Assembly: GCA_028554645.1 (NCBI GenBank) | Contig: JAQOOI010000019.1 | Coordinates: 1,178,001 to 1,242,000 of the forward strand | Length of the DNA: 64,000 nt | Source: Omphalotus guepiniiformis | Lineage: Eukaryota > Basidiomycota > Agaricomycetes > Agaricales > Omphalotaceae | Direction of reading: 5' to 3' | Shown: piece by piece, positions 29,782 to 56,020 of the stretch | How positions within the stretch are numbered: the stretch's first letter is position 1 | How the letters are laid out: the number at the start of each line of letters is the position of its first letter | The notes under the pieces: generated by a model | What the model saw: only the letters and a program-made list of their open reading frames with translations | Databases searched by the model: none | Told to the model about the DNA's origin: nothing | Translations under genes and position numbers: made by a program

Positions 29782-29986
29782 TCGGACGTCCTCGGACGTT
29801 GACGGTCTTGGTGTTTCTTTCTTTCTCTCTATCCCTTTTGCTCTCTCTCTTACTATCACGCTTATCTCGTTATAAAAAACAGACATTTATTTATACAAAA
29901 CAAAACAAAAGCTATCAAGAAAAACAAAACAAAAGACATATTATATACAAGTTCTTTTTCTTTTCTATCTACAACTCATTCTCTAT

Positions 29987-31473
29987 TCATGTCCTACTCG
30001 GACCTCCTCGCTCTTCCCGTCGTCTTTCAATTTCTTTTCGCCTCTCTGCGAACATTTCTCTCTCCTCCGCGGTATAGCGAGGATTCGTTTCCTCTTCTGT
30101 TCTGATTCTTTCTGCCGGGACTTCTCGGAGGCCCGTACAGATCTCGTCCACCTGCTCAAAAAACTCAGTCAACTGAGCGGCCTCTCCGCCCAGTACTCCT
30201 TGCACCATCCTACTGTTCATGACACTAGGCAACGTCGGCTCTCGCACCTCCGGACGGGCATCCGAACGCTCTGCCTGGTCGCGCTCCCAAGCGAAGTGTA
30301 GTTCTCGGCCCATTTCGGCGAGCCGGATCGAGGCATTGATTATGGCCTGGTTCATAATGTACGACCCCTGGATAGGAGTCGCGGCACCCATTGCCATTCC
30401 CAAGGCAAGGGCCCAGTCGCGGGTCCGCTCCGCCAAGAACACACCCCAACTAGAGACTTCCTCTCTAGTTGAGTACACTGCGGCATCCACATCATCGATC
30501 CGCCGGTTCACCAAGTCCAAGTCCGAGAGTTCCACGGAGTCCCGAGGCTCTCCGGCTCGTCCCTCCACTTTCTTCTCTAACCTAGCTAACCTGGACAGTA
30601 TTTCTTGATTTTGCTGCATGAGCAGCTCGAGGGAAGCCGAAGGAAAGGTAGTGGTGGTGGTGCTCGGAGCACCGACTCGCTCCGAAAATGAGCATCTTGA
30701 TTTTTGTTTCCTGCATTCGTCGCAGGAAGTGGATTTGGTGTTCCGTGGGCGGCCGGAACATCGGTATCGTCTGGCCTGGCACTGCAGGCAGGCGAGTCGG
30801 GAGCGAGGAGCTCCGTTTTCTTCTTCTTCTTCTTCTTCTTCATCTGAAATCACAATAGACTAAAATTTTGTTATAAATCAACTCCAATACTGATGATTGA
30901 TCACGTACCGCTGAAACCACGTTTTTTCTCTTTCTCTTAGGAGACCCACCGGCCTCCGGTTCCTCTTGTGCCTTCCTCTTCCCTTCTCTCTTCTCCTTCC
31001 TCCTCCTTGCTTCCTCAGCCTTCTCGATCGCCCTCCTGGCCTTCTTTTCCTCCTCCGCCTCACTCTCCTCCTCGGCCCTCCGGTTCTCCTCATCCAATAT
31101 CCTCTGCGCCTCCTCAATCTCTCTCCTCCTCCGCTCTCGCTCCTCCGCCCTCCACTTCTCTTGCGCCTCCTGACGCCACTCCTGCACCCTCCGGACTTCC
31201 TCTGTCCACTCATTCTTCGCCTTGTCATAGGCAGCCCACTCGCTATCCTCTTCCTGTTCAACTGAAAGGACATGAATATCGGACATCCGCGGACAGAAAA
31301 GACTCACCAATAGCAATCGCCAATGTTATCCTATCATATTCTTCCGCATTCTCTGGTGTCTTTCTGCGAGGCAGCGCTGGTTTGACACGAGGTTCGGGCT
31401 CCGGACGTCCGAAGGGCGCCGGTAAGGGGTACTCCTCCTCAAAGCTGGGGGTGGTGGCGCGGTTTGATGACAT
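29987..31473 (-). CDS. Gy3 antisense gene: Zn2Cys6-like coiled-coil protein
   Basis: Three exons on the strand opposite pol: 31308-31473, 30909-31261 and 29987-30859. The introns are 46 nt (GTGAGT...TTTCAG) and 49 nt (GTACGT...TTTTAG), and phases agree throughout, giving about 463 residues without a stop. Residues 1-60 are Pro/Glu-rich; about 60-170 are a highly charged Glu/Arg coiled coil; an acidic run follows. A six-cysteine cluster, C-x2-C-x6-C-x11-C-x2-C-x6-C (CLQCQARRYRC ... CDECRKQKSRC), lies at about 197-232. It matches the spacing and basic character of Zn2Cys6 fungal DNA-binding domains. A leucine-rich helix (LELLMQQNQEILSRLARLEK) and a helical C-terminus follow. Its 3' end is 205 bp from the pol stop, tail to tail. 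A regulator or nucleic-acid-binding accessory is plausible; the function is inferred. Confidence 0.8.
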
Positions 31474-31538
31474 CGTTGTGTTGGGCCTACGGGGTGGATT
31501 TGCGCGGGGTTGGGGAACTTAGAGGTTTGCAGGCTAGG

Positions 31539-31546
31539 CTTTTATA
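31539..31546 (-). promoter_or_regulatory. TATAAAAG box upstream of the Gy3 antisense gene
   Basis: The minus strand reads TATAAAAG 66-73 nt upstream of ATG 31473, within the short region between the antisense gene and the 3' LTR. This suggests the gene has its own core promoter rather than relying on LTR readthrough. Confidence 0.6.
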
Positions 31547-31617
31547 TCTATCCAGTGTTTGGCAGGATTTGGTCGATGTTGAAAATTCGGACACATCTCA
31601 CTCCGAGGGGCAGGGTC

Positions 31618-31662
31618 GGACTTGGGACTTGGGACTTGGGACTTGGGACTTGGGACTTAGGG
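31618..31662 (+). repeat. 9-bp tandem repeat GGACTTGGG
   Basis: About five head-to-tail copies of GGACTTGGG lie between the antisense gene start and the 3' LTR. The run is next to the purine tract AAGAGGGAGA before the LTR. Confidence 0.8.
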
Positions 31663-31695
31663 TTCTTGAGGGCAAGAACCCTAAGAGGGAGATAC

Positions 31696-32235
31696 TGTTA
31701 CGGCTATGCGCCGGAACTCCGGGTCAGACCTCCGGTTTCTAGAACTTCTTTGATTTCTTCTTCCTGACATCTATTCAATCTTTCCATATGGTTCACTTTA
31801 CAAATTCACGCTTTCCTATTCGCTTTTATTATTCTTTTCTACTCCGGACATCCGAACGTCGCCAACGTTCCATGTTCTTATTGTTCTTTAGTTTCATTCT
31901 TCTCACACTATTGTTTTATTACTCCGAGTATCTCCGGTAGAATACTCATATAAATACTTCACGCTTATACTGTATATACTTTAGTTTTAAATCAATTTAG
32001 TCTCCGGACTACTATCTTGAATTTCTCGTCTGAACTCTCATCTCTCCTCGGACTTCCAATCCGGGTGCAGCACGGGGGGCAGTATCGAAATAATACTGCC
32101 TACCGGGTGAAGTCTTGTTGCCGGAGCAATTCGGAGCTCCTGGTTTATCTTGTCTTGTTCCTTTCGAACTCCTTCTCTCGGACCTCCTCGGAGGTCCTTG
32201 CTCTCTTACCGTCTCTAGTCCGCACGGACTTAACA
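31696..32235 (+). mobile_element. Gy3 3' LTR
   Basis: 540 bp, nearly identical to the 5' LTR. The purine-rich AAGAGGGAGATAC just upstream fits a polypurine tract. Confidence 0.93.
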
Positions 32236-32709
32236 CCCCAGATGCGTACCAAGTGGAAGTGATAAAGGAGACAAGGCACGTGAGCTCTCATTAGGACCGG
32301 GAAGATGAACATTAGTACCCGTAGGAGGTTTCGGACCAATTATACAAAATTTGGGCGTCATACATCGAGCAAATTCCCGACTGGTTTCTACATGTGGAGA
32401 ACGAATGCGCAAGGAAGTGCGCGGAATGGCATTAGCCTCAAGACCAATATAAACAGGCATTGAAACAAGGTCAGCGGGTTTAGACATTGGAGGTATAGAG
32501 TCATTGAATTCAGTGTATTCCGAAGGATGGCGGAGAGTGCCAGGTGAGTCGTTAGCATAAATTCTGGATAACGTGTCACTCAATACATTTTCAACTCCCG
32601 GAACGTAGATTACTTCAAAATCAAATTCAGAAATGGCAGTGAGCCAGCGGGCTTGGCGCCCACTCAGCAATTTCTGCTCGAGTAAGTGCAAGAGAGGCTT
32701 GTGATCAGT
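32236..32709 (-). pseudogene. Gy1 RNase H fragment
   Basis: Minus-strand translation begins VTDHKPLLHLLEQK, then LSGRQARWLTAISEFDF, VIYVPGVENVLSDTLSRIYA and a downstream linker. These are the C-terminal RNase H motifs of the same lineage as the RT at 49765-50570. The upstream end is cut at 32707-32713 by a join to a truncated Gy5 LTR, sharing GTGACAC-like microhomology. The downstream end is cut by Gy3. About 150 residues that should lie between RT and this block are missing. Confidence 0.85.
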
Positions 32710-33305
32710 GACACAGATACTTACAACCTACATACACGGATATAGGTATATATATTTAGCTATAATTTCCGTTTTTATTAATTTTGGACTGGCAGTATGT
32801 ATAAAAGGGCAGTAACTTGGAGAGAGAAAATCCAGGAGAGTACCATAGAGTCACAGGGTCACTGGGGACCGTCTTTATAACATGAATCGTGCCTGTGAAG
32901 GGAAATCCTACCAAAAACATAAAGTTGCCCTAGTCTGTTTATAGTCCAGTGTTTATTGTGATATTGTATAAAGATCATTGTTGGTTGAATTGAACTGGTT
33001 GTGTTATTGGAATTGGTTGTTTGATCTTGTGGTCAATTGGTTGTGATTGTGCAGTGAACACCTGTCTTGTTCAAAACCGTCTCGTGCTACTTTTTGCCTT
33101 AGTGCATTTTAAAAAGCTCAACTATAAAGTTCTTGTGATAAAGATATAAAGTTCTAATAAAGAAGCCATAAGTTTGGTCATGTGGAACCTTCAACAACAC
33201 CCCCTCAGACTCGCACCTTTCAAGTGACTTGGTTGTTTTGGTTGTTTTTGGGTTTTTGTTCATTAGCCCTTTAGCAGTTCATTTCCCCGTTTCATTCTCA
33301 TCATC

Positions 33306-33323
33306 TGGAGCCCACCGCGAGGG
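33306..33323 (+). promoter_or_regulatory. Gy5 primer-binding site
   Basis: TGGAGCCCACCGCGAGGG starts two bases after the LTR end. TGG plus a GC-rich stretch is what a tRNA 3' end (CCA) would pair with. I have not identified the tRNA. This site ties the 1.36-kb LTR family to the Gy5 coding region. Confidence 0.6.
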
Positions 33324-33479
33324 TCAAAAGTACAAATTGACTTCGTGAGGGACGAATTCGTGGCTTTCTAACGGAATTTTACCATTTGAATTACAAGGAA
33401 ATTTGTGTTGTGCAATAAAGTACTGTTTTGTTCTATACAGTGCTACATAGAGCTTTTGCTTTATTTTTGGATTGTGAAG

Positions 33480-33911
33480 TTCACTTGTCAAAATTAGTGG
33501 ACCTAGCAAACCTAAACCAAAACGTCAGACAAAGAATTCCCAAAGAGCTGGTGAAGAAGTTTTAAACTTTCAATCCAGATCTTCTACAAGAGAAAGAAGT
33601 GTTACTAGTTCCACATCCAAGGGCAAAGGGAAATCAGTACCAGAGCCTGAAAGTGTTGATCCAGTATTACCTGGTTCTTTTGTTCTGTCATCTGACAATA
33701 ATTGAGAGTTTATACCCGGTGAATTTGATCGTTTATGTCCGCCTAAATCTACTGTTGAATTTGGAAAGTCTTATCGACTACCTGCTTCAGTATAAAAATC
33801 TAAAAAGAGTTTCAGAGAAGTTACTACTATGTCTGCTACTAGTACTACTGGTGCTGGTCCAAGTGGACAAAGTAGAGGAGATGATGATATACCCAGAAAC
33901 AATGATAATAC
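33480..33911 (+). pseudogene. Gy5 gag N-terminus, interrupted by LX
   Basis: One frame reads SGPSKPKPKRQTKNSQRAGE, a Ser/Thr-rich segment, then STVEFGKSYRLPAS, a stop, KSKKSFREV and GAGPSGQSRGDDDIPRNND, up to LX at 33912. Two in-frame stops (TGA near 33703 and TAA near 33794) both fit C-to-T changes; copy a has CAA at the second. The next codons of gag, NTRTTFVGVHELFPEAL, are found at 62576 downward on the minus strand. No clear ATG is visible. Confidence 0.75.
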
Positions 33912-34078
33912 TGTAACAGACTGACCCCATAGCCATGTTAACCGTTGTGCCAAAAGGCCGGCAATGCTAGATTCATTCTAGCATTGTGGGATCTACTATA
34001 TAAGCAGTATTTGGACCTTGCTCACATTGCTGTGAGTTGGGCACATGCCATTTTATGACATGTCACTTTTTTGTGACA
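33912..34078 (+). mobile_element. LX, 167-bp solo LTR (left copy)
   Basis: It runs from TGTAACAGACTGACC to TTTTTTGTGACA. It contains a TATATAAG box and a 10-bp-stem hairpin (CAATGCTAGA/TCTAGCATTG). The left flank is AATAC (Gy5 gag) and the right flank is GACAG (LF3), so its two sides come from different target sites. The partner copy at 62577 has the complementary flanks. Confidence 0.85.
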
Positions 34079-34156
34079 GACAGTATTCTATCCCATAGTT
34101 TCGTCTAAGACCTCCAATTAGAGTGCCTTTGTCTTTCATCAAGTTCAGAGGGTTAC

Positions 34157-34608
34157 TGTCAGCGACTCGAGTTATCAAACTCAAATAACCAAACACAAGG
34201 ATCTTAGTTTCACACGAGTAAGAGAAAAACAGAAAGTGGAATTGAGAAAAGAGACGATACAAGGAAGTATGCTAAGTACAAGTCTAAACTCGAGGAGTTA
34301 TTGACAAGATCGAAGCTAAAGAAATATCTACCTAAGCGGACTTGTTATATACGTAAATAAAACCCTAAACCCTGGGCTATAACCCTTGACTAATCCACTG
34401 TGTGTCTACCATGAGTTCGATCGCCTCAAGTGTTTCATTAATGATCGTGATCGCCTTGAGGTCTACATGCTTGATCTCGATCATCATGCTACCTACGTGT
34501 GTATTTAATATAACCCTAGATCTATAACTTAAGATGCTATCTACTGATAATAAAAGTGTCTATATGTACAAACAATGAGATAAGATGAAAAAGAAAACGT
34601 TCGTATCA
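34157..34608 (-). mobile_element. Gy4 3' LTR
   Basis: On the element's strand it begins TGATACGAACG and ends GAGTCGCTGACA. The preceding purine tract AGGAGGGGGTCA (34609-34620) ends at the pol stop. The LTR holds a telomere-like AAACCCTAAACCC stretch (about 34364-34376, plus strand). Confidence 0.93.
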
Positions 34609-34619
34609 TGACCCCCTCC

Positions 34620-37600
34620 TTAGGGACGATGTCCCCATCGTCCTAACTTCACTGCTAATGCTTCTGTCGGCATCTTCTTCATTTCTACTACTTCCGTATA
34701 TGCTTCAGGGATAGGTCGTAACAATGATGTCGGGAATAAGGAAATTGGAACCTCAATCTTTCTTAACTGAGGTGGTCGTGGTTTAGTGGGAAATTTTTTA
34801 TGGAACTCTTCGATTGCTTCTTTTGCGTTTGCAAGGTTTGCTAATGGTTCCCATGTTTGTTCGTGCCGCGAGTATCCCTTCCATTGGACTTTGTATCCGA
34901 ATCTCCCTCCCCTATATTTCCCTGAATCTACTATCTCTTCCACCTCGAACTCCGGTTCTTCTCCTTCTATCACTGGTGGCGGATTATCATTCTTAGGCTG
35001 TTCGGGGAATTCAGGCAGATGATAGGGTGACAGTAAAACTTCGTTAAAGACTGGATGTATCCTCTTCCAAGTCTTCGGTATCTTTAGTTGATACGACGTT
35101 GCTCCAACTTTCTTTACAACTTCAAAAGGACCAAATCGTTTATCATCCAACTTCTTCATTGGTCGATCAGAAGTCAGGTTTGTCGCTTCAAGCCATACTT
35201 TGTCATTAGGCTTATATTCGACTGATGGTTTCCTCTTCTTGTCGTAATACCGAGTCATGTCTTCCTTTGCCTTCTTAAGCGCCGCCCCTACTTCGTCCCT
35301 GATCTTGATCATCTTATCGGCAAATTCCTGTGCTGTGGGATTTGCCGACGGAGTTCTTGGAGCTGTTCCCTTATACGGATGTCGTCCCATATCCGCATAG
35401 AACGGAGTAACACCCGTGGCTGAGTGTATCCTATCATTCAACACGAATTCTGCTGTTGGTAACCATTCATGCCAGTCGTTCTGATGTTGATTGATGAATA
35501 ACCGGAGATAATGTTCAATCTCTTGGTTCATCCGTTCCGTCTGTCCATTCGTCTGTGGGTGATATGCCGTTGTGAAGCTTCCTTGAATGCCTAATAACCG
35601 GTATAGTTCCTTCATGAATCGGGAATGATATTGGGGTCCCCGATCATGAATAATCTTTCTCGGTAATCCGTGTATAGGAAAGATTTTGTCCCTATAGATT
35701 CTGGCCATTCCTTCAGACGTTAACGACATGTGTGTGGGTACCAGACGTGTTCGTTTCGTGAAATGATCCACAGTCACACTTATGGCATTAAAACCTCCAG
35801 CTTCCGGTAGTTCTCCGATCAGATCCGTTCCTATGACTTCCCAGGGACCTTGTGGAACATTGTTTGTGACTAGTGTTCCCGTTGGTTTGGTTCGATGAAT
35901 CTTAGTGGCCTGACACTTTTCACACCCTTTAACGTATTTCCGTACATCCTGAGTGATTCCCGGCCACCAATAGTTTCTCGTCACCAATTCCATGGTTTTG
36001 AACTGCCCTGGATGTCCCGTCAGAACGGTATCATGATGTAGTCCGATGATCTTTCCCCGTAACCTATTATCAATAGGCACGTAAATCCTATCCTGCCATG
36101 TCACAATTCCTTCCTCTGACTCAACCCAATCCTTCTCTTTTCCTTCTAAAGCCTTATTCACTAGATTATCCCGCACTTTTGACTTTTTCTTGATAAGATC
36201 TAAGATCTCGTCCTCGGGCATCTCTAGTCTGTTGATCGAAAAAAGTTCCGGCTTTAAAAGTACCACATCCTCATTGTCTTTCTCCCCCGTCTCATGATTG
36301 GCCATCCTGGACAATGCATCTGGCTTTCCCATCGACTTTCCAGGTTTATGAATCAATGTAAAGTCGTATTCAGATAATTCAGTGATCCATCGGGCTTGTC
36401 GACGATTCAATTTCTGAGGTTTTTTGAAATACTGAAGATTTTGATGATCTGTGTAGATCTCAAATGACTCTTCCGCACCCATCAGATACTGTCTCCAATC
36501 TGCTAAGGAATCCATAATGGCCATCATTTCCTTATCATAGATCTCATAATTACGTTCCGTTTCATTTAGAGATCTAGATCTGAATGCAATAGGCCACCAT
36601 TTTCCATCTATCTTTTGCGATAAGACAGCTCCGTTTGCATAATCTGAGGAATCTGCCTCGACTCTGAATTGCCCATGATCACGGGGTATGGTTAGAACAA
36701 CTTCTTCAGCAATTCTACTTTTGAGTTCTTCGAATGCCTGCTGTTGCTGCTCTGTCCATTCCCACTTTGAATTCCCAGTCAGTGATGACAATGGTTTCGC
36801 CACTTGACTGAATCCTCGGATAAATCGTCGGTAGAAGTTGCAGAAACCCAAGAAGGACTGTACTTCCTTCTTGTTTCCTGGTATTTTCCATTCTTTTACC
36901 GCTTTGACTTTCTTTGGATCCATCCGCACTTGTCCATTTCCTACAAACACTCCAAGGTACTTGACATTACTGGTCTCGAATTCGCACTTTTCAGGTCTAA
37001 GATACAACTTGTGTTGTCGTAATATATCTAACACCTGTTTTACAATTGACTCGTGTTCTTCGATTGTATTTGTGAAAACCAAAATGTCGTCTAAGTACAC
37101 CATGACATGACCTTCATTGATCAAATCCCTTAAGATATGATTCATGAACGCTTGGAAGGTCGCCGGAGAATTTGTAAGACCAAAGAACATAACCGTTGGT
37201 TCAAAGAGCCCCTGATTAGTCCTAAATGCCGCCTTCCACTCATCACCTTCTTTGATCCGGATATTATTGTATCCCCATCGAACATCCATTTTCGAAAATA
37301 CTTTCGAATCCTTCAGTTTATCAATGAGTTCTTGAATGAGTGGCAACGGGTATTTGTTCTTTATCGTTGCTTCATTCAACTTCCGATAATCCTGAACAGG
37401 TCGAAGTTTCCCATCTTTCTTTGCCACAAAGAAGAATAGTGAGGCCATCGGTGACTTTGATGGTCTAATTCGTCCAGATTTCAGATTTTCCTTAATGAAC
37501 TCATCTAAAACTTTCTGTTCCGAAGGATTTAATGAATAGACCTTGCAATCTACTGGCGTAAAGTCTGGCTTCAGTTCAATTGCATGGTCCCAGGGTCTTC

Positions 37601-38714
37601 GTTCGGGTAAATTTTGGAAATCGGCTTCATCAAAAACATCCTTGTACTCATTGACGTATTTGTCTGCTTTCGACTCAGTCTTTTTGCCCTTTCCAAAGTT
37701 CATACTCCGAAGATATCCATCCCAATTCAGGTAAAACAAGCGATCCCCTTCTTCCAGTTCCCGGACTTCAGCGTCGGATTCAGGTTTTAGGTAATACGGT
37801 ATATAACCACACTTCTTAGGACATCGATCAAACTTTAAGGTTGAGTCATTCCAATCTATATTGGGGTTATGACGTCTTAACCAATCGAGTCCCAGAAATA
37901 TGTCCGTTTTGCCTAAATTTGTAACAGCAAGTTCAATGCGTTCCGCATGATCTCCCATTACCAATCTGACTTCTATGAATCCTTCAATTGAACCGTCCTC
38001 GTTTAAGGTACCATCAGCATTGTATACCGGCATCTTTACTGGTAATTTCTTAACAGTTAAGCCATGTCGCTCTACAAATTCTTTATTGACGCAAGAACCC
38101 GTTGCTCCACTGTCAAGTAATGCCGATGTCTCTATCTGCTTGCCACTCTCGATGTCTTCGATTGTAACAGACAGCTTGAGATCTCTTCCTTTAGTACCTT
38201 TTACGAACCGCAAGTTTTTCTTAAGCGACTTTACGGCTGTGATGGCTTCGCTGATGTCCAATGACCGGATCTGGGCAACCGTTTCTTCTGATGCTTCCCT
38301 GGCCCGACAGGTTGGCATCCATGCTCTCAGAATTCCCACCGCTCGTTCTGACTCATCCTCCCTTACTCTCTGCGCTATCCATTCTGGTGAATTCGGCGGA
38401 TAACGTTCTCTCACAGGCTTTGAATCGGACTTTGTAGATACTGACGCAAATTTATTCTCAGGATGATTAAATACAAAGTGAAAATTGCTGTCCTTGTGAT
38501 CTACACTAGACTGTTCCGATTCTAACTCAGAAGGACCTGTATTCACTTCTGAGCTCTGACAAAACCCGTATCCGATTTCAACCAGTTCAAGAACCAGCTC
38601 GGTGGCTGTTCTTCTTTCTTCTCCTCTTCCTGCACATTCATCTGCCTCACTCTCTGACCCCGCTTCGCTGGACAATCCCGCGAGATATGCCCCCTCTGTC
38701 CGCAATTGAAACAC
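34620..38714 (-). CDS. Gy4 pol: protease, RT, RNase H, integrase, chromodomain
   Basis: The open frame of 1364 codons overlaps gag by 172 nt in the -1 frame; translation should enter at the slippery site 38561-38567. Approximate residues: protease LLDSGATGSC (200), RT with KMDVRWGY and MVYLDDILVF (539), RNase H VEADSSDY (688) and YDKEMMAI, integrase zinc-binding region ending CEKCQATK (931), catalytic D in GTDLIGE (963), D in HDRGPQ (1023), E in GQTERMNQ (1058), chromodomain (1255-1305: VEEIVDSGKYRG ... YKVQWKGYSRHEQTWEP). Nothing is missing. It copies the RNA into DNA and inserts it. Unlike Gy3 and Gy5, there is no space for an antisense gene: the pol stop adjoins the purine tract. Confidence 0.96.
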   Translation of the reverse strand: MFQLRTEGAYLAGLSSEAGSESEADECAGRGEERRTATELVLELVEIGYGFCQSSEVNTGPSELESEQSSVDHKDSNFHFVFNHPENKFASVSTKSDSKPVRERYPPNSPEWIAQRVREDESERAVGILRAWMPTCRAREASEETVAQIRSLDISEAITAVKSLKKNLRFVKGTKGRDLKLSVTIEDIESGKQIETSALLDSGATGSCVNKEFVERHGLTVKKLPVKMPVYNADGTLNEDGSIEGFIEVRLVMGDHAERIELAVTNLGKTDIFLGLDWLRRHNPNIDWNDSTLKFDRCPKKCGYIPYYLKPESDAEVRELEEGDRLFYLNWDGYLRSMNFGKGKKTESKADKYVNEYKDVFDEADFQNLPERRPWDHAIELKPDFTPVDCKVYSLNPSEQKVLDEFIKENLKSGRIRPSKSPMASLFFFVAKKDGKLRPVQDYRKLNEATIKNKYPLPLIQELIDKLKDSKVFSKMDVRWGYNNIRIKEGDEWKAAFRTNQGLFEPTVMFFGLTNSPATFQAFMNHILRDLINEGHVMVYLDDILVFTNTIEEHESIVKQVLDILRQHKLYLRPEKCEFETSNVKYLGVFVGNGQVRMDPKKVKAVKEWKIPGNKKEVQSFLGFCNFYRRFIRGFSQVAKPLSSLTGNSKWEWTEQQQQAFEELKSRIAEEVVLTIPRDHGQFRVEADSSDYANGAVLSQKIDGKWWPIAFRSRSLNETERNYEIYDKEMMAIMDSLADWRQYLMGAEESFEIYTDHQNLQYFKKPQKLNRRQARWITELSEYDFTLIHKPGKSMGKPDALSRMANHETGEKDNEDVVLLKPELFSINRLEMPEDEILDLIKKKSKVRDNLVNKALEGKEKDWVESEEGIVTWQDRIYVPIDNRLRGKIIGLHHDTVLTGHPGQFKTMELVTRNYWWPGITQDVRKYVKGCEKCQATKIHRTKPTGTLVTNNVPQGPWEVIGTDLIGELPEAGGFNAISVTVDHFTKRTRLVPTHMSLTSEGMARIYRDKIFPIHGLPRKIIHDRGPQYHSRFMKELYRLLGIQGSFTTAYHPQTNGQTERMNQEIEHYLRLFINQHQNDWHEWLPTAEFVLNDRIHSATGVTPFYADMGRHPYKGTAPRTPSANPTAQEFADKMIKIRDEVGAALKKAKEDMTRYYDKKRKPSVEYKPNDKVWLEATNLTSDRPMKKLDDKRFGPFEVVKKVGATSYQLKIPKTWKRIHPVFNEVLLSPYHLPEFPEQPKNDNPPPVIEGEEPEFEVEEIVDSGKYRGGRFGYKVQWKGYSRHEQTWEPLANLANAKEAIEEFHKKFPTKPRPPQLRKIEVPISLFPTSLLRPIPEAYTEVVEMKKMPTEALAVKLGRWGHRP

Positions 38715-39433
38715 TGCCCATTCCTTCGAGCCGCGTCAATGTCCATGGGTTTACCTGTACCCCCAAAGGTTGTTCCTGTGGCATCTCTCCGATCACCACT
38801 TCCTGCCGCCTGTTGCGGACTTTGTTCCCTTCTTGGCGTAAACACCGGTCTGTTCTGATTCTTGCGCCATTCCTGACGCCTTCTCCATAGTTGATCAATC
38901 TTGATCACTATGTCTTTCCATTCATCGTACACTTTGGGTAACTCATCCCTCGTGTAAATGGCATCAATAGTCTTCTCATTAATGCCCTTCTCAATGAGCC
39001 GCACCACATACGGGTCATCCTTCTTGTAATCCGCCTCCGTCAACAGTATCTCCAACTCCTGGAAATACTCCTCCGCCGTCCCCGCTCCTTGCTTCAACAA
39101 CTCCACCTTCTCCTGCGCTGTCCTCTGCAGACCGGAATCTAGGAACGCTTTGTTCAAGGCTTGCTTGAATTGCGCCCAGTCCTTCTGCCACTTCTCGTTG
39201 TCTTGGTCGAAATGGGTGTTGTAGTAGTTATTCACCCATCCGTCGACAAGCTTTCCGTTCATGAAAGAGATCGCAACGTCGATCCTCTCATCATCTGTTG
39301 TGATACCATTCTTCTTATCACGGATATAGGTGAACAATCTTCGTCGCCAATTCTTAAATTCAGATTTGACGCCGGTGAAGTTGTCGGGTTTGTTGAGGAG
39401 TGATTTTCCTCGCGAGGTGTCGATTTCAGACAT
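38543..39433 (-). CDS. Gy4 gag
   Basis: 296 residues from MSEIDTSRGKSLLNKPDNFT. The capsid-like region includes KNWRRRLFTYIRDKKNG, DGWVNNYYNTHFDQ and AEEYFQELEILLTEADY. A basic linker precedes one zinc knuckle, C-x2-C-x4-H-x4-C (CFNCGQRGHISRDC). It ends with LKSDTGFVRAQK and TGA. The last codons contain the GGGTTTT frameshift site. It forms the particle and packages Gy4 RNA in the cytoplasm. Confidence 0.95.
   Translation of the reverse strand: MSEIDTSRGKSLLNKPDNFTGVKSEFKNWRRRLFTYIRDKKNGITTDDERIDVAISFMNGKLVDGWVNNYYNTHFDQDNEKWQKDWAQFKQALNKAFLDSGLQRTAQEKVELLKQGAGTAEEYFQELEILLTEADYKKDDPYVVRLIEKGINEKTIDAIYTRDELPKVYDEWKDIVIKIDQLWRRRQEWRKNQNRPVFTPRREQSPQQAAGSGDRRDATGTTFGGTGKPMDIDAARRNGQCFNCGQRGHISRDCPAKRGQRVRQMNVQEEEKKEEQPPSWFLNWLKSDTGFVRAQK
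38561..38567 (-). promoter_or_regulatory. -1 frameshift heptamer GGGTTTT in the gag-pol overlap
   Basis: In the gag frame the minus strand reads ACG GGT TTT GTC, so G_GGT_TTT is an in-phase X_XXY_YYZ slippery site, six codons before the gag stop. The -1 frame continues GFCQSSEVN into pol. Downstream structure was not tested. Confidence 0.7.
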
Positions 39434-39967
39434 TCTGATAGGAGTAGAAGGTTGGGTAGAATAGGGAGATGATGCAAGAGATTTGTAGGAAGATGTGATA
39501 GGTGATGGGATGGTGGTTTCTTCGAAGAGACTGCTAAAGTTCCCCCAAGATTCCGTAATGGTAAAGTTTACTTCGGTCTGTCAGTAACCTCACGAAGAGA
39601 TTTCGGGACCTTTTCTGCCTCTAATAAACGAGTTCCTAATCCGTGCTCTCTTGCTGAGTAAACCTGGGCGTGCCTTTCTAGGAGTGCACCTCGTTCCCCA
39701 AGCGCAAAGTCCCCTCCCCGAAGGTTGGTTATCAGACGATGCTTTCTGCTGCCAGTACCGAGTCGGACTCAACGTTACTCGTTTGTACTATAGGCGCAAT
39801 TACTCTAATGGAGCACAGATTCCTAATTCGGACGGAAACCCGAATATCAAAGGGAGAAAACGAAGTAAGCGTGTGAAGGTGAAGAGAAACTTACTTGCTA
39901 CTGAAATAGCAACAAGAAGGCAAACTTGAATTGTGTTGGTCGGGTGAGTTGTGTAGCTTCGATCTTA

Positions 39968-40419
39968 TGTCAGCGACTCGAGTTATCAAACTCAAATAAC
40001 CAAACACAAGGATCTTAGTTTCACACGAGTAAGAGAAAAACAGAAAGTGGAATTGAGAAAAGAGACGATACAAGGAAGTATGCTAAGTACAAGTCTAAAC
40101 TCGAGGAGTTATTGACAAGATCGAAGCTAAAGAAATATCTACCTAAGCGGACTTGTTATATACGTAAATAAAACCCTAAACCCTGGGCTATAACCCTTGA
40201 CTAATCCACTGTGTGTCTACCATGAGTTCGATCGCCTCAAGTGTTTCATTAATGATCGTGATCGCCTTGAGGTCTACATGCTTGATCTCGATCATCATGC
40301 TACCTACGTGTGTATTTAATATAACCCTAGATCTATAACTTAAGATGCTATCTACTGATAATAAAAGTGTCTATATGTACAAACAATGAGATAAGATGAA
40401 AAAGAAAACGTTCGTAACA
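39968..40419 (-). mobile_element. Gy4 5' LTR
   Basis: 452 bp, essentially identical to the other LTR. Between it and the gag ATG lies about 530 bp of leader without a recognised TGG-type primer site: the leader begins TAAGATCGAAGCTACAC on the element's strand. Confidence 0.93.
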
Positions 40420-41106: not shown

Positions 41107-41290
41107 GTTGCCAAGGGAAGATTACACGCGGCTTAAAAACTTCATGCTCCTTTTATACTGTTTTCGGCATCTCAAATACCCATTAAAGAAACATCTCAGA
41201 TATGGAGGCCAAAAACATGAGGTATTTGATGAACCAAAAATGATACAAAAATTTCTTATTTCTCTAAGCTTTCTGTAGACAAAGAAACTT
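41107..41290 (+). repeat. Foldback arm 1
   Basis: The stretch with TTAAAAACTTCATGCTCC, CTGTTTTCGG and AAAAATGATACAAAAATTTC closely matches 63858-64000. Both lie next to the outer ends of LF3. If the 34079-62576 segment is turned over, the two arms face each other, so LF3 was inserted into a hairpin-type repeat. Confidence 0.7.
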
Positions 41291-43165: not shown

Positions 43166-43169
43166 CCGT

Positions 43170-44770: not shown

Positions 44771-47370
44771 TCAATGTTAAGATGGACTGGTATCAGCAAT
44801 GAAAAGAACCCCTAGGCTCATCCTACAGCGCTAATCAAGGTCAGTGTCTGTCAATACCTAATATGTCAACTCAATTGAGTACATCAACACTACTGCCGCC
44901 AACTTCTACGACTTCTGCCCCTTTTCATTTTGGCATTCAACCTAGGCCTCAACCTCAACAACCTCCATGCCATGGTATGTTCTCTCATAAACATTAACAG
45001 TGGATCTGACTTTCTTATAATACCTTTCTAGACTATCATTTTCAAGCACCACGGCCAATTTATCCTGGAGTGCAAACTGTTACAGAACGACTATCAGAGG
45101 CAAGATCAGGACATCACACGCCTTATTCAAGCGGCTCACCATATCAACCAGCCTCAGTACATCAGTCAGTCACTATATGGTATTGCTCTAGTTAATAGCT
45201 TTCTAGGTGTCAGCCATTCGTCCTCATGCCTTCAGCTCACATCCCAGGTCTCACAATTACACCCCTTCACCTCTCAGTCTTCAGGAAATCAGGTCTCCAT
45301 CCGGGTTGAGCCACTTCCTATATTCCAACAACTCGACTTCTCCTCTCAATGTCACCTGATCTATCCATCTCCAACAAGCTCAAAGCCATGTACATCCTTA
45401 TCATTCCTCACCTCCCTCTCCTTTCCCTTCCAACAATAGTCGTTTCCAACCCATAAATCCAGTTCAAACCCCAGTGTTTACCCCAGCACCCACCGACTCC
45501 TCATCTCTTCCTTTGCAGCCCTCTAGTGCTGTGAATGTTCCTCCCTGCCCTACACAGCCAAAGGCCTCCACTAGACCCCATCTCAGCTGGCAAGAAGTTG
45601 TGGTCCACAAGACTGTGGACGCATCTACCATTCCAGAATGTCCTACACCCACTGCTAGCCCAAACTTGCGGTCTCAGAACCCTGCCACACCTAGAACTAG
45701 AGAGTCCATTCTCCCTGCCACCCCTCATCTTACCAACACCAACCAGGCTCTGCAAAACCCAGAGCCTCCTTTCTCTGCCCCCTCCACTCACATTCCTCTC
45801 ACCACATCGTCTTCATCTAATACTCTCCACCTTGCCACAAGACCAAACTCCAATATCGAGTCAGTCGAGGGACCTTCTCCCCTTTCTCTCCCACAACTCG
45901 GTCTCGAGAACTGGGCTATACTTGGCTCTAATCCTTCCATCACTCACAGTGCACATCTAGGTGGGGCTGAGAAGGCATTGAAAGCGAAGACCTCCAACAC
46001 ACGTTTGGCGGAAATGGCTTCCAGAATTTGCGAAAAGCCAGCAAGGAGCACAACATACCACTAGCTCGCATTTGAAAGCTGGTGGGATTACACCACTCAT
46101 TTAGAAGTAGGAAGGAGCCAAGTGCCTACAATGCTGGGTTCTTTATAAAGGCACAGGAACTGAATGAAGGTGTGTACTCAGCGTAATCTTAATAACATGC
46201 ACTAATATTTTTTCTGTTTTAGGACGGTTCAAGGGAAATAGGGCCAAGATGCAAGAGATTCACGCGAGTCTCCAAGCGGGCGAGGAAATGATGAGAGAAG
46301 TCAACAATCCAAAGTTGCAGAAGGTTGTAAAGTGGAAGCAGGCCCTTAAGGATGCTTGAGAGGACAAGTTTATGGGTACCCCAGACTCAGGGAAGGTGAT
46401 GAGACGACAGGGGACAGCAGTCATGTACCGCGCTAAGCAAGAGGTAAGACCATACATTTGCTTTGTGTAAAAGGCTTGTACTAAGAGTGTTATCTCAGTG
46501 TGAAAATCTCTTGAGACATACCGGAGCCTTCACATTTGGCATGATGTGCCAGTCCGGCTTCAGTACTAGTATCACCCCTGCCTTCTGGGGTCTCGGATCC
46601 ATGGAAGACTTCCTAATGGACACATTCAAGATTTCTTGCTTTGACTTTGTCAAAGCAGCACAAAGCTACGCCTGCCTGTCTCACATGTGGGGTGATGGAT
46701 TGTCAAACAATAGGATGAAGGTGGCCATTGCTGGAATGATCTCCCGGGGACTATGTGAGTGATATATAATTATTCTAAGAGATATACTAATCTTTGCTAT
46801 CTGGTAGATGAGATTACTGGCAAGAAGAACACAAATATGGAATACAAGCACTATTGTATCAAGATCGTCAAAAAACATCATGTCCACCTCACTCCCTGGC
46901 CCCAGCACCTCCCCTTTGATAATGCGCACAATCTAAAGGCTGACCAGGTGAAGGAGCTATATGATCTACTCAGAAGTGGTGCCCTTAGATGTATGGTAAT
47001 GAGCGCATCTGAATATAGGCAGGAGATGGTGAAGTTGGAGGTGGATATCAAGGATGGGAAGGTTACAGAGCCGTTGCGCGCTCAACGTTCCGACATCGAA
47101 AGTACCCACACTAGGAGCAAGAAATGTTCTCGAACTGGCGGTGACAGTCCACAGTCCACCAAGAGGGCAAAGGCTATCCAGAGCAGGAAGAGAGGTGCTC
47201 TCAAAAGCCAGGAGTTCATTGTGTCAGACAATGAAGAAGGGCAGGAGGAGGGGGAAGACCACCAGGAGGAGGAGGAGGAAGAAGAAGACCACCAGGAGGA
47301 AGAGGAGGAAGAAGAAGACCACCAGGAGGAGGAGGACAACGAGGAGGATGAGCTCATTCACAAGGACGAG

Positions 47371-47510
<140 letters not shown>

Positions 47511-47581
47511 CAATGCCTTTGGTGATGAGGGGGGCTTAGATGATGGAGCAATGAAGGAGATTCTGGATGATCCTGAGGCGG

Positions 47582-49317: not shown

Positions 49318-49344
49318 GCGGACATAGACAAGGATGAGAACTAA

Positions 49345-49764
49345 GTCATCATCATTTATTTTACTTTATTCCAATAATCTATGTTCATTACAATTGAATT
49401 TCCCTCTCAATATAACCCTATTATATTATACATGAATGATGGCTACAGAAATATGTACAGACAACTAAAAGCAAGAATTAGTAAGCTATATGTAGGTCCA
49501 GGACCCTGCCCCAACGCCTCCCGAGACTTCCCCAGTACCTACCAGTACTCCGGCATGCTGTAAGTCCTACAAGTTTCTCCAACTTTAATGAACTAGCAGG
49601 AGGGGAGCTATAACTGGCTGTACGCATTCTCATCAATGATATATCACACTATTTTGATGTTTAGCTTATTTGGTAATATTAGGTGACATAAGGTACTTAT
49701 TGGACTCAATGACTCACGAGTGATGATTGGATCCAACATTTCTGTACCTATGGATGGTGATTAA
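49345..49764. other. No firm gene; short frames only
   Basis: Sequence between the interrupted gene and the Gy1 RT. A 44-codon frame (MNDGYRNMYRQLKARISKLY) starts near 49432. The right part near 49700-49760 may be decayed Gy1 protease-RT linker. I cannot support a feature. Confidence 0.45.
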
Positions 49765-50570
49765 GTGAAATTTTTATCATCCCGAGCATTGGATCTATAC
49801 AACAACAAATTAGAACGTGTTTGTGTGGATATTCTGGCATATGCTGAGCCTTTGTCCGTCTCAGCAGCAGACACACCTCTACTGCCATTGCGGGATATTA
49901 ATCACAAAATTCCGCTGATCAATGAATCTGCTGTTATTCCATGGCGACCTGCCAGATGCCCTGAACCGTTACAGGAGCAATGGAATATTAAACGTAACGT
50001 GTACCTTCATACCGGTTGGTGGAAGATATTCACGTACCGCAACACTGTTCCCCTATTGTGTATACTGAAATCTAACCAACCCAAGGATTGGCCCGGATTA
50101 TGCACTGTGATGGATCTTCGATTAAGGAATAAGAACACAAAAAAGTTGTCAGCTCCTTTGCCTGTAATCGAGAGTGTGTTACGTCGAGTTGCGAGTAAGC
50201 CATGGCATACAATAATTGATAGTCAGGATGCCTACAAACAAATACACATAATACCCGAGCACGTTGAACGTAGTAGTTTCACCACACCTGATGGTAACAT
50301 GGTCAGTTTGGTGCTACAACAGGGGGATTGCAATGCACCGGCTACATATCAAGCTTTAATGGATCATATTTTTCTGGGCTATATTGGTGTGTTTCTCGAT
50401 TTTTAACTTGACGACATTATCATCTATTCTGACACTTTGGGAGACCATGTAAAACACTGTAAGATTGTTATTGATATCCTACAACGCGAATCGCTTTACA
50501 TTAGTAAGAAGAAAATGCAAATATTACAACCTAAATTAAAAATCCTAGGCCGTATTGTCGACGATCACAG
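49765..50570 (+). pseudogene. Gy1 reverse transcriptase fragment (inverted)
   Basis: The translation has the N-terminal RT lead-in PLLPLRDINHKIPLINE, the block ending RRVASKPWHTIIDSQDAYKQ, TTPDGNMVSLVLQQGDCNAP, then GVFLDF, a TAA (50404-50406), LDDIIIYSDTLGDHV and LKILGRIVDD. It ends at the Gy5 LTR at 50571. The stop falls in the YLDD tyrosine codon. Its RNase H partner is at 32236-32709 on the other strand. The two are on one strand if 34079-62576 is turned over. In life it would have copied element RNA; it is dead. Confidence 0.88.
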
Positions 50571-51551
50571 TGATGTGAATGAAACGGAGAAATGAACTGC
50601 TAAAGGGCTAATGAACAAAAATCCAAAAACAACCAAAACAACCAAGTCACTCGAAAGGTGCAAGTCTGAGGGGGTGTTGTCAAAGGTTCCGCACAACCAA
50701 ACTTATGGCATCTTTATTAGAACTTTATACCTTTATCACAAGAACTTTATAGTTGAGCTTTTTTTAAAAATGCACTAAGGCAAAAAGCAGCACAAGACGG
50801 TTTTGAACAAGACAGGTGTTCACTGCACAATCACAACCAATTGACCACAAGATCAAATAATAACACAACCAGTTCAATTCAACCAACAATGATCTTTATA
50901 CAATATCACAATAAACACTGGACTATAAACAGACTAGGGCAACTTTATGTTTTTGGTAGGATTTCCCTTCACAGGCATGATTCACGTTGTAAAGACAGTC
51001 CCTAGTGACCCTGTGACTCTATGGTACTCTCCTGGATTTTCTCTCTCCAAGTTACTGCCCTTTTATACATACTGCCAGTCCAAAATTAATCGAAGCAAAT
51101 TTCCTCGATCAACTTTTGTTCCTGGCGATTAATTAAGGAGTAAGTACCCCAAAACTATTCTAGATCCATTATTTCGACTCTATTTCGTGTTCCATCCATT
51201 TTTAGTTTCCGCCGGGTTTTTAATCTTTATTGACTAGAGGAAGATGTTCCCCTAATAATTATATGGTGCAATTGACACTGTGATGTCAGAGTTCCCGTTA
51301 CGAGATTGGGTGAGTCTGATTCAACAGTGGATGACTATTGAACAATTCTCTACATCACAACTGTACTGACTAGCCTAGAACCTTGATACACATGTTGTAC
51401 CGTAGGTAATAGAACATGCTTTATTACTCAAATCACAACACATTTTGATTGACAAGGCGGACACCTTTCAACCCTCTATATCCCTCACTGCAAATGCCTA
51501 AAGTGATTAATCACCTGGCTTTTAATGCAGGTGCCGAAAATCGGCGGATCA
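50571..51551 (-). mobile_element. Gy5 copy b 3' LTR, internally deleted, 981 bp
   Basis: On the minus strand it starts TGATCCGCCGATTTTC and ends TTCACATCA. Compared with other copies about 380 bp are missing near 51095. The 5' LTR of this element lacks its own first 770 bp or so, so a deletion in one LTR cannot be compared directly with the other. Confidence 0.88.
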
Positions 51552-51562
51552 TCTCCCCCAAG
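51552..51562 (-). promoter_or_regulatory. Gy5 polypurine tract
   Basis: The minus strand reads TTGGGGGAGA directly before the LTR start TGATCC. This shows the 51.6-56.2 kb region is internal to the element rather than flanking DNA. Confidence 0.7.
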
Positions 51563-52116
51563 CTAAAATCTTGACCGTCCCCAGTCAATTCTTCAGCCAA
51601 TCTACTGACTTTATTTTATAGTACAGCAGTTGTTAAGAGTTCAATAAAATTTTCCTTCAACATTATTCACCCGGCCAATATTCCATTATTCAAACACCGG
51701 ATTGAAAGCCGCTATGGCACAATCACGTGACTTTTTGCCGAACTGCTGGAACTGAATACAAACAGCTTTGGCCTCACAGACTCAGAAGTGTGTTTTCCTA
51801 ACTTGTTCATTTTAAAGTTTTTCTGGAATATCAGCCCTCAACACAAGCTATTTCCCATCATAGGTGAGTCATTATTACCTTATACGTTGTCATGTCTTTT
51901 ATTCACATCTTTTTGCTTTTCACGCTCGTCACTTCATTATATATGGGTTCAACTTCGCTTTTTCTTTCTTTGTATGATTCCTATCCCTCTGACTCTCAGA
52001 ATTTACAGAACGAGCAGGAACTTGGTTCTCTCCCTTCTGACCTTCATTCTACTGCTTTCAATCGTTCTATCCTTCTTCTTTGTTGGTTGTATTCTCTCCC
52101 TACTTTGTTTGCTCCA
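51563..52116 (+). other. Upstream region of antisense gene 1
   Basis: About 550 bp between the 3' LTR and the first ATG of the antisense gene. A TATATATG motif at 51938-51945 could be its core promoter. An open frame runs from 51892 into the gene, so an earlier start is possible. Confidence 0.45.
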
Positions 52117-54219
52117 ATGGCTCCCAAGAAAGACGGCTCAGGTAACAAGAAGAAACACGACTCTGGGCGAACGACTTCCACAGGGACGTCCACTATAGCT
52201 CCTCGTAAGAAAGCTCCCCCTGTCTTTTCACCGGTTTCTCTTCCTCGTGTGCAGCACATCGCGCTCCAAGAGGCTATGGTTGCAATCCAGCGCCATGTCT
52301 CAGAGGTTTATATTCGCCTCTTCGAAAAAGACAATGATCCTAGCTTCTGAGTTGCTCATCTAATCACGCCCTTGGATAACACTTATACCACCTGGGTAAG
52401 ATTCATTATGTTTTTATTCATTATTCCCTTACTAAAGTCCTTATTACTTTCTAGCACACATTCTATGAAGACTGGACTTCTGACAATGATTTTCCTTACT
52501 ACGCAAGATGTTTTTGGTGGTCTATCTCTCGTCTAGCTTGGCATCTACAAGATACCGGCCTTTCTGACTTCGAAACTCTTGAACCAATGGTAATCCCCAA
52601 AGCAATGCTCCGTGAGCTAAAAACACTCAAGTTCAAGGTTCGTTTTTCTTATATCCTTCTTTTTGTATCACTACTTACGACTCTTTTTCAGCTATTTCCT
52701 TTATCTTGTCAACTTCCTCCCATCGAATCTTATCGCTTTCAAAATGAGAACTCCTTTGACTTCTCCCTTCCGGAATTTGATGTCTCGGCGCTTTCTGAGC
52801 TTCTGTCCAAAGCTTCTCCGAAGAAACTCAAGGAGTCGCCTCCCGTTGAAGAATCTTCTGACGACGACGACTTTGATGACAAAGAAGAAGAAAAGGATGA
52901 GCTGGAGTCTCCGCCAAAGAAAAAGGTGAAGCGTGTTCCTTCCCCGGCACTTCGATCGCAGATTCAAACTCGGTCAACGACTTCGATTCCTACATATACC
53001 CGTTCCGGTGTTTCACGCAGTCGAGATCATCCCAAAAAGATCAAACCCAAGGTAGGTATCTTTATTCAATCATTTTATTAACATTATTTTGACTAACTAA
53101 TCCCATTTCTAGGAAACGGTTGAGGTTAGCGCTGGCAAAGACGACGAAGTAGTCGAAACCGTTACTGTCAACCCCTACGGAATTACATACGCTACCAATG
53201 CAGTAAGTTCCCCTTTATATCTTTAATCTTGTTTCTTAACTGCTCTCGTTAGCCAACTGGCAGCAAGAAATCCTTTATCAGAGATTCACGCCTTGCCACC
53301 TCCGCAGCTATGATTCCCTTCAATTTCGTTGATCCTACTGGCTTACGACACAAGTTCAAGGACCTCGTCACCGTCAATCGGTCTCTCCAGGGTTACAGCT
53401 TGAATCCCATCTGCGCTGGATGCCTAGCCGGCAATCTCAGTCAGCTGTGTGTATGGCGCGGAGAGGACAACAAATGTAGCATCTGCGAGAAATGGAAACG
53501 ACCTTGTTCTTTTCAATATTTGCTTGACGGTATCACAAAGGTGCGTGACCTTGCTTTCCAGGAAGGACGTTAACACCCCGCTGGTACGTAGTCCCGTTTT
53601 TAATCTTTTTCTTTCATTCTAATTTCAGTTGTATTAGCAATCAACACACACATTTCGAATTTACTACAACTTCACGCTGAGTTCGACAACCTCATTCGAC
53701 AATCGAATCAAACTCGCGAGTCCACCAAACGTTTGAGTTCATTGATCCAAACAGAACAACAGCATCTTCGTGAATTGTGTGTAGATGCTCGCAGCGTTCT
53801 TTGTTCTCTCAAGCCGGATGTGGAATTCTTAGCGAATAAAGGCCAGATGGAATTGCTAGCCGCGGCTCTCGGGTGGCAAGTCGACGACTTTCGGCTTCAT
53901 AGCGCAATCAGCACCAACAACCAAGGCAAACCGATAGCCGTAGATCCCGTGTTTTTAGACAAGGCTAGAGAAACTGCAAATCAAAGTGCAGGAGTTGGGG
54001 AATCACAGGAGGTAAGTCCAGAAGCTTAGGCACTGGACTTACACTTTCTATTCATTCTATTCACCCCAGCTCCTTCTTTTGAACGTGTTTATCTCTGCCT
54101 TTCTTGACGGTCTTATTTCGTTGTAGGTCACCACTCGTCGAAACGAACACTTTATACGAACATTATCTTTACCATACCGTTGTTTGTACCTAAATTTAAG
54201 TTCTACCACTTGCTTGTAG
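52117..54219 (+). pseudogene. Gy5 antisense gene 1: Zn2Cys6-like protein
   Basis: Seven exons opposite to pol: 52117-52395, 52455-52637, 52692-53051, 53113-53202, 53253-53583, 53629-54011, 54127-54219. All joins keep phase and give about 570 codons. Two in-frame stops, TGA 52348-52350 and TAA 53571-53573, both fit C-to-T changes, so this copy is probably a recent pseudogene. The N-terminus is Lys/Ser-rich (MAPKKDGSGNKKKHDSG); an acidic stretch with a KKKVKR basic patch lies in exon 3. Exon 5 holds six cysteines, C-x2-C-x8-C-x8-C-x2-C-x6-C (53412-53507; CAGC ... CSICEKWKRPC), similar in layout to the Gy3 antisense protein; both end C-x2-C-x6-C-S-F. A long helix follows. DNA binding or gene regulation is an inference. 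Confidence 0.75.
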
Positions 54220-54722
54220 ACACTTAGTGTACTGACATATCATTCTTCATTGTGCTTTCTTTTATTGATTATGAGTAAATTTAAACCTTAAGATTCTAAG
54301 AAATCGAAGTCGCAGCTGACTTTCTGAAGTCCGGCTGAAATTCAAAATCAAAGATTGACGCTCAGCGCTTAAATTCCATATTAAGAAATGACCACAACAT
54401 TCAATATTACATTCTTTTTACTTCATTTTTCCTTCTATTCTTTATGTTTCTTTTAATTTGAGGGACAATTATACACCGGATAATAAATATATTCATAAAT
54501 TTTCCATAACTTGTCACCCTCTCCCCCAAACTAAAAATTTCAGCGCCCCCGCTAAACATTATACCCCTAAGATAATTTGAAGACAATTTTTCGACCTCAA
54601 AAATTTTCAGCCAGGTACAATACATTTTTCAGCTATAAAAGAACAAATGTATGGATCATAAATTGCATCGAACCATCATTCATCTGTTCTATAACTCGTT
54701 ATCACAAGCTCTTACTTTCTCA
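54220..54722 (+). other. Spacer between the two antisense genes
   Basis: About 500 bp, AT-rich, with no supported gene. It contains the TATAAAAG box of antisense gene 2 and probably the 3' end of gene 1. Confidence 0.5.
54634..54641 (+). promoter_or_regulatory. TATAAAAG box of Gy5 antisense gene 2
   Basis: A TATAAAAG lies 82 nt upstream of ATG 54723, a spacing similar to that in the Gy3 antisense gene. It implies a private promoter inside the element. Confidence 0.55.
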
Positions 54723-56020
54723 ATGGCCCCTACTCCCACTTTCATCAAAGAAGACTGGCTTGCTTTGCTGGAACTTCGTCGCGGCACCTTTGACCGTGCT
54801 CGTGCTTGTAACGTTCCCGATGGAGAGATGTTCCAATTTGCTAAGACACTTTGTGACTTCTTGGTATGTTATTTCATTTTTAATAATCGTCTGGTGTTTA
54901 ATAATAAATCGAGTTTAAGGTTAAACCCCTTGATATGGCTACTACGGCTGCCGACGACAAACTCTTCAAGAAGTTTGAAGACAACATCACTGCCCTTCAG
55001 GCGGTTATGGCGGCTCAACCTCAAATGTCACCTCTTCGTTCTGTAGCCGGACTTCAGAAACACCTTGACCGTATGGTTCAAGAACGTCTCAAGAATGCCG
55101 CTGCTGCTGCTGAAGCAGTTGCTAAGGCTAAGGGAGAAGGTAACAATCGTAAATGCAAGGTACAAATATCTACCGGACTCATATTCTTTATCTAACTTTA
55201 TTCCAGGGCAAGGAAACTCCCAAGTCTAAGGCTGTTTGTGACGACGACAACAACATTGAAGTCATTATTACCCCTTCTCTCGACAAAACTGTCGGTGAAG
55301 CACTTGTAAGTAATTTCCACCCCGTAATTAATAACTTTGTACTAATATTTTGTACACATTGTTCTTACAGATGACTGACGGTACTAAGGGCTCCAGCAGT
55401 GCTAAAAAAGCTGTAAGTCACTCATTATTTTCAACCGGGCATATATTAATTTGTTACTAGTTCCGTAAGGCAGAACTTATTGCGAACCAACACACTGTTG
55501 TAAGCATGCCATACTCAGCAGTTCCTGGATTGGATCAATCCTCTGGTGCATACAGGAAGGCTAACCACTACATTTCGAAGGATTTTGCGACATCCAGCCA
55601 AAAACGACTCAAGCTGGAAACAGCTGTTTCCAAACTTAGTGAAGAAACTGACTGTAAGTACACACTTAATAGTATTCATTATACATTCTGACATTATTCG
55701 TTATAGTTGAGAAGGCCCTACGTGATATGGCTCATACCAGTGTTCTTAAGACACTTGTGTTCGTTCCATACTACGATTACAACCAACTCACGCTCAAATC
55801 TCTTAAGGCTATTCACAATTGCCTTCGTACCGAGTGTTCCACTCTCGCACACATTGTTCAAACCAACGGTGCTCGCTATCGTGACATGCAGAAGCTAGCA
55901 GACAATCTTTCCTTAGTTATTAAGAGGAAGTCCATTAAAGGTAGTTCCGATGTTGATGGAGATGACTCCATGGACTCTGTAGATTCTACCTCTACCACTG
56001 ACATGACTACTGACGAGTAG
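54723..56020 (+). CDS. Gy5 antisense gene 2, unknown function
   Basis: Six exons (54723-54863, 54920-55159, 55207-55305, 55371-55412, 55461-55653, 55707-56020) join in phase into an intact 342-residue protein, with 47-65-nt GT-AG introns. I do not recognise the family. It starts MAPTPTFIKEDWLALLELRR and has an alanine-rich helix (RLKNAAAAAEAVAKAKGEG). A middle part follows with YSAVPGLDQSSGAYRKANHY, then LKTLVFVPYYDYNQLTLKSL and an acidic Ser/Asp tail (DDSMDSVDSTSTTDMTTDE). There are no cysteine clusters, signal peptide or membrane segments. It ends 155 bp from the pol end, convergent. Its intact frame, while gag, pol and gene 1 around it are damaged, is notable. It may act with gene 1. Confidence 0.75.

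Follow-up and report, generated by a model that had tools for sequence, protein, structure and literature searches.

What does a spliced gene do when it lies inside a retrotransposon, on the strand opposite to pol? The question arises at a 64,000-nucleotide stretch of the Omphalotus guepiniiformis genome (contig JAQOOI010000019.1, positions 1,178,001 to 1,242,000; hereafter the window), in which two gypsy-type long terminal repeat (LTR) retrotransposons, Gy3 and Gy5, carry genes of this kind. An initial annotation of the window placed them between the integrase end and the 3' LTR, convergent with pol, and the coordinates agree. It went on to propose that they encode a shared Zn2Cys6-like regulator. 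We followed up this proposal, beginning with Gy3, the features of which are as follows.

23749-32235, plus strand: Gy3, a complete chromodomain-type (chromovirus) LTR retrotransposon, identified by its LTRs, target duplication and Pfam domains
23749-24288 and 31696-32235: LTRs of Gy3, 540 nt each
24590-29781, plus strand: gag and pol of Gy3 (Pfam Retrotrans_gag, DUF4939, RVT_1, RT_RNaseH, Integrase_H2C2, rve, Chromo)
31473-31308, 31261-30909 and 30859-29987, minus strand: antisense gene of Gy3, three exons, 463 amino acids, with frame and introns kept among copies
30690-30790, minus strand: six-cysteine region of its product, C-x2-C-x6-C-x11-C-x2-C-x6-C, followed by a predicted coiled-coil helix

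The Gy3 antisense gene and its exchange between elements

The LTRs of Gy3 differ at 2 of 540 sites (99.6% alike), and a 5-bp target duplication, CCCCA, is present on both flanks. The antisense gene lies 205 nt past the pol stop and 223 nt from the 3' LTR, and the three-exon, minus-strand structure first drawn at 29987-31473 is sound, with exons in frame and introns of 46 and 49 nt that are both GT..AG. Searching the whole genome (42.5 Mb) with the gene gave 32 match rows, and 20 copies were examined, the window's own included; ATG, frame, both GT..AG introns and stop are all intact in 15 of them. At the protein level, 23 of the 26 genomic rows that span nearly the full exon 3 contain no stop.

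Comparison of the window gene with eight diverged copies gives 0.031-0.045 nonsynonymous changes per site (dN) and 0.357-0.410 synonymous changes per site (dS), with dN/dS of 0.09-0.12; a ninth copy is almost identical to the window and is uninformative. Nonsynonymous changes are far below chance against copy L028 (p 6e-32), and against L027 there are 20.5 synonymous and 19.5 nonsynonymous changes (p 2e-4), while the recent pair formed with L026 (dN/dS 0.91 on 4 changes) is uninformative. The gene's own frame gives dN/dS of 0.09-0.10 and the other five frames 0.20-4.9, the value of 0.20 belonging to the mirror frame, which shares its third positions with the gene's own frame. These patterns identify the Gy3 antisense gene as a true spliced accessory gene under purifying selection. 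The convergent arrangement with pol would also suit a role for the antisense RNA itself, through double-stranded RNA and silencing, with the protein incidental, and such roles are discussed for plants in excerpts of PMC7264820; a dN/dS of about 0.1 together with conserved introns is selection at the level of the protein, and we consider the RNA explanation very improbable.

The gene and the element around it have different histories. In the same eight pairs, pol dS is 0.035-0.077, so that at silent sites the gene has diverged about 5-12 times as far as pol. Measured per 250 nt between the window element and L028, the backbone differs by 0-6% and the antisense gene by about 5-14%, and the edges of this block are sharp, near 31500 and near 30040. 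Five types of the gene can be distinguished among sixteen aligned Gy3 copies, and within a type the gene is nearly uniform and gag is not; L034 and L036, for example, have a gene dS of 0.009 and a gag dS of 0.219. Because gene dS lies so far above pol dS in the same pairs, the comparison indicates that the Gy3 antisense gene moves between element lineages as a block. We infer that the cause is recombination between elements, for instance by template switching during reverse transcription.

Block exchange recalls the immunity regions of lambdoid phages, and the protein might by analogy repress its own element type in the manner of superinfection immunity, with exchange of the gene block allowing escape. 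The gene block is indeed the sharpest island of divergence in Gy3 and is swapped between backbones. Against this, the LTRs are independent of gene type (between/within ratio 1.1-2.0) and the proteins differ very little from one type to another (dN 0.02-0.045), so that no type-specific operator is visible in the LTRs, and we regard an immunity module as distinctly improbable.

Zinc-cluster features and relatives of the Gy3 protein

The Zn2Cys6 domain (PF00172) has the consensus C-x2-C-x6-C-x5-12-C-x2-C-x6-8-C. The Gy3 spacing of 2-6-11-2-6 fits it and occurs in all 28 loci scanned (window copy and duplicates included; one has an internal stop). Exon 3 scores 21.3 bits against Pfam Zn_clus, narrowly over the curated cut-off of 21 bits; a 105-residue piece scores 24.9 bits, with matches in six of six copies at E 1 or below. 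Like regulators of the Gal4/Leu3 type, the protein has the cysteine spacing, a following helix and homologous relatives over the Pfam cut-off; it departs from them in being retrotransposon-borne and in its borderline score.

Several results weigh against a zinc cluster in the Gy3 protein. The exon 3 match is confined to positions 1-15 of the 39 in the profile and falls on the second cysteine triad, and the full 463-residue protein scores 18.9 bits, under the cut-off. Gy3 copies are absent from the 34 Zn_clus matches of a genome-wide scan, and matches of the protein to LEU3 fall short of significance (E 0.34 and 0.059). Structure models are poor (predicted local distance difference test, pLDDT, 47 and 65), albeit with helices in place in the Gy3 model at 65, and a structure search with the models matched no PDB fold. 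Protein searches with Gy3 residues 185-460 and with residues 300-571 of the Gy5 gene A product (see below) examined 2730 and 2747 candidates, respectively, and found no homologue at E 0.001; coverage of spliced fungal proteins in the database may be poor. The database is not blind to fungi, since it holds fungal pol relatives of Gy3, the best named being from Lentinula edodes at 77%.

The gene also has relatives outside Gy3. Nineteen relative rows on contigs C1, C4, C5, C13, C15, C41 and C78 are 30-51% identical to the Gy3 gene, and none has stops. Four of these places match Zn_clus at positions 2-35 or 2-36 of 39 with 28.2-30.1 bits, and for relatives of 36-51% identity the match (positions 2-36, 30.1 bits) begins a few residues at most from where the first cysteine of Gy3 lies. 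As open relatives match the profile at the place of the Gy3 cysteines, these are best read as a diverged zinc cluster, and the assignment of the Gy3 product as a diverged Zn2Cys6 protein is supported.

The relatives also suggest where the gene came from. At six places, relatives of exons 2 and 3 stand 79 nt apart, as expected for a shared intron position. No integrase match was found within 10 kb of the gene relatives (150 of 352 candidates scored), and no gene relative within 10 kb of the 18 pol relatives (44-53% identity; 49 of 674 candidates scored). With no integrase detected nearby and the same exon 2/exon 3 arrangement, the Gy3 line most likely captured a host gene of a Zn2Cys6 family found elsewhere in the genome; the reverse may instead have happened, the gene passing from Gy3 to the places of its relatives. 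That relatives exist outside Gy3 would fit a captured gene carried as a passenger of no use to the element, an explanation that we think extremely improbable given selection over many element generations (dS up to 0.41) and the 15 of 20 copies with intact frames and introns.

We note that some of the relatives form an array at 178-194 kb of C15 and that the same member order recurs on C1, C4 and C13. The telomere repeat TTAGGG, searched for as four tandem units, was not found in the assembly.

CGG-containing sites and a possible self-regulation

Zn2Cys6 proteins classically read CGG triplets as half-sites. The two Gy3 LTRs contain 26 and 29 CGG/CCG triplets against 13.1 and 14.5 expected, and none of 300 shuffles reached either count. 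The LTRs of Gy4 and Gy5 have no such excess (1 and 12 against 4.4 and 8.3 expected). The top enriched 6-mer of Gy3 is CTCCGG, which occurs 31 times in 7,947 nt where 3.9 are expected; with the 3' LTR counted there are 36, and 5 in the opposite orientation. When protein, codon usage and next base are held fixed, an excess persists in gag (8 against 2.4; 1 of 400 randomizations as high), pol (11 against 6.4; 9 of 400) and the antisense gene (6 against 2.7; 6 of 400), and is missing for the opposite orientation. Ten aligned Gy3 copies hold 33-38 CTCCGG each. The excess of CGG-containing sites is compatible with action of the protein on its own LTR.

We favor, with a probability of about 0.45, a reading in which the product of the captured Zn2Cys6 gene would bind CGG sites of its own element and adjust transcription. 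The gene would be transcribed from a promoter in or beside the 3' LTR, and its introns would be spliced from the antisense transcript only and survive retrotransposition, because they are in the opposite orientation in the sense genomic RNA. The protein would enter the nucleus, bind CGG-containing sites of the element, including the LTR, and adjust its transcription; an acidic stretch beside the cysteines inclines us to activation over repression (60:40).

Other observations pull away from self-regulation. The 222 nt ahead of the antisense ATG have no excess of CGG, the CTCCGG excess spans the whole element rather than the LTR only, and the LTRs, as described above, do not follow gene type. 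Codon usage explains the CTCCGG excess in part, as the expectation for pol already shows, and conservation of the sites is not clearly above that of control 6-mers. Finally, the 36:5 strand bias may point to RNA. Within the antisense gene, too, the bias runs with the sense strand of the element (6:0), and there is close to an even chance that the array is a genomic-RNA signal (packaging or export) or a sequence bias peculiar to Gy3, unconnected to the zinc protein. The enrichment in the LTRs of the CGG triplet, the very half-site of this protein class, stands against such a disconnection. The more elaborate proposal, that the oriented CTCCGG array of body and LTRs is read by the captured, intron-bearing Zn2Cys6 protein and that the reader gene is swapped as a cassette, the whole forming a self-recognition system, we consider unlikely.

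The antisense proteins could instead be nuclear transposition factors, helping the integration complex to be imported, tethered to chromatin or directed to its targets, and not regulators of transcription. A DNA-binding domain with basic stretches would serve equally well for this, selection acts within the Gy3 element, and a nuclear role has been proposed for plant antisense proteins in excerpts of PMC7264820. The Gy3 chromodomain is already available for tethering, and the CGG excess sits inside Gy3 itself; we give this alternative a minor share of the probability.

Gy5, known antisense genes and significance

Gy5 lies on the minus strand and carries two antisense genes, the second of which (gene B) was absent from the initial annotation.

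50571-51551, minus strand: 3' LTR of Gy5, from repeat matches and the junction sequence
56176-62642, minus strand: gag-pol region of Gy5 with interrupted frames (Integrase_H2C2 at 1e-17), of a distant Ty3/gypsy lineage
52117-52395, 52455-52637, 52692-53051, 53113-53202, 53253-53583, 53638-54011 and 54127-54219, plus strand: antisense gene A, seven exons in phase
53415-53516, plus strand: six-cysteine region of the gene A product, C-x2-C-x8-C-x8-C-x2-C-x6-C, from a pattern scan
54723-56020, plus strand: antisense gene B, six exons, 342 amino acids, open in the window and conserved among copies

The purine tract reported beside the Gy5 LTR is there: TTGGGGGAGA abuts the LTR start TGATCC at about 51550. 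Compared with another copy, the 3' LTR lacks about 385 nt of its interior, and the 5' LTR was not located. Within 56176-59550 the reverse transcriptase is divergent, with RVT_1 matching only at E 0.12. The pol pieces of Gy3 and Gy5 are 22-26% identical, in agreement with two distinct gypsy reverse transcriptase lineages.

The seven-exon model of gene A originally given for 52117-54219 has its exact span and phase right, and two internal in-frame stops disrupt the gene in the window. The gene is fully open in 3 of 8 subfamily copies, the eight including L016, which lacks the 3' end; this count leaves out L045-L047, which are too diverged for projection onto the window exons. Against five copies the window gene has dN/dS of 0.18-0.31. 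Between two diverged groups, exons 4-7 give 0.05-0.07 with saturated dS (1.9-2.8), and in diverged copies nonsynonymous changes in exons 4-6 are far too few (p 2e-40); the recent pair L010 and L012 (dN/dS 0.81, p 0.44) is uninformative. Of 9 distinct copies of gene B, 6 are open; dN/dS is 0.15-0.40, where the integrase end of the same pairs gives 0.12-0.38; these ratios indicate that it is under purifying selection, and it has no Pfam domain over cut-off. As in Gy3, blocks differ in history, with gene B 92% alike between copies whose gene A is 72-74% alike. A survey of copies for open frames and dN/dS, suggested at the outset as a check, has thus gone in favor of the antisense genes, and a chance open frame as their source is ruled out in both elements by dN/dS and by the conservation of frames and splice sites.

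Both the Gy3 and the gene A proteins do have six cysteines ending C-x2-C-x6-C-S-F, and the gene A pattern is present in 10 of 14 loci scanned, several of the other four holding only part of the gene. Its spacing of 2-8-8-2-6 misses the Zn2Cys6 consensus, the first half having x8 and not x6. Zn_clus has no match in the window gene A or in the spliced protein, and matches one of six Gy5 members at E 2.9. The Zn2Cys6-like character claimed for both proteins, for which a profile or structure search had been recommended, is therefore supported for Gy3 and not for Gy5. A single shared ancestral regulator is rejected, as no homology could be demonstrated: BLASTP aligns 25 residues of the two zinc regions at E 0.012, and profile-profile comparison gives a probability of 16.5%. 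On this evidence the two proteins are not demonstrably related. A role for Gy5 of the same kind as in Gy3 would be a guess by position, with a cysteine protein independently acquired and, as a second protein, the gene B product.

Two further features of the window are a second young element at 34157-40419, with LTRs of 452 nt that are 99.8% alike and no antisense gene, and a 12-nt tandem repeat at 47327-47542 coding for a long acidic EGEG run.

Antisense genes so placed, after pol and ahead of the 3' LTR, have earlier been described in plants and in Boty of Botrytis cinerea, and in this general sense the supposed lack of a description in fungi does not stand. The Boty gene, brtn (Zhao et al. 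2011, as cited in PMC7264820, PMC8365987, PMC4227169 and PMC5987419), belongs to a Boty-like Ty3/gypsy element and resembles the Gy3 gene in lying antisense between pol and the 3' LTR of a fungal chromodomain element; the citing passages, which allow comparison by description only, do not mention block exchange, a Zn2Cys6 domain or relatives outside the element. The plant genes, termed aORF-3R, include Grande gene23, RIRE2, the Retand ORF (TRP28) and PvRetro13 (excerpts of PMC7264820 and PMC11963269). As described there, they are like the Gy3 and Gy5 genes in position, orientation, presence in most copies and a suggested nuclear or DNA-binding role, and unlike them in their domains (TRP28, SMC) and element lineages. 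In antisense orientation, location and retention among copies, the Gy3 and Gy5 genes fit the aORF-3R description. A viral parallel is HBZ/APH of human T-cell leukemia virus (HTLV), whose antisense transcript comes from the 3' LTR and which represses viral transcription (excerpts of PMC3185765); it too is an antisense 3'-end gene with a transcription-factor domain, there a bZIP and not a zinc cluster. Our literature search, outside which most subscription papers fell, Zhao et al. 2011 included, found no Zn2Cys6 antisense gene in a fungal LTR element.

Such genes would tend to be antisense because only antisense introns survive passage through the genomic RNA. To our knowledge, no function has been established for the antisense genes of LTR elements. 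The Gy3 gene joins a recognizable DNA-binding domain, a likely host source, selection, block exchange and a candidate motif within one element, and it makes this old question directly accessible by a binding experiment.

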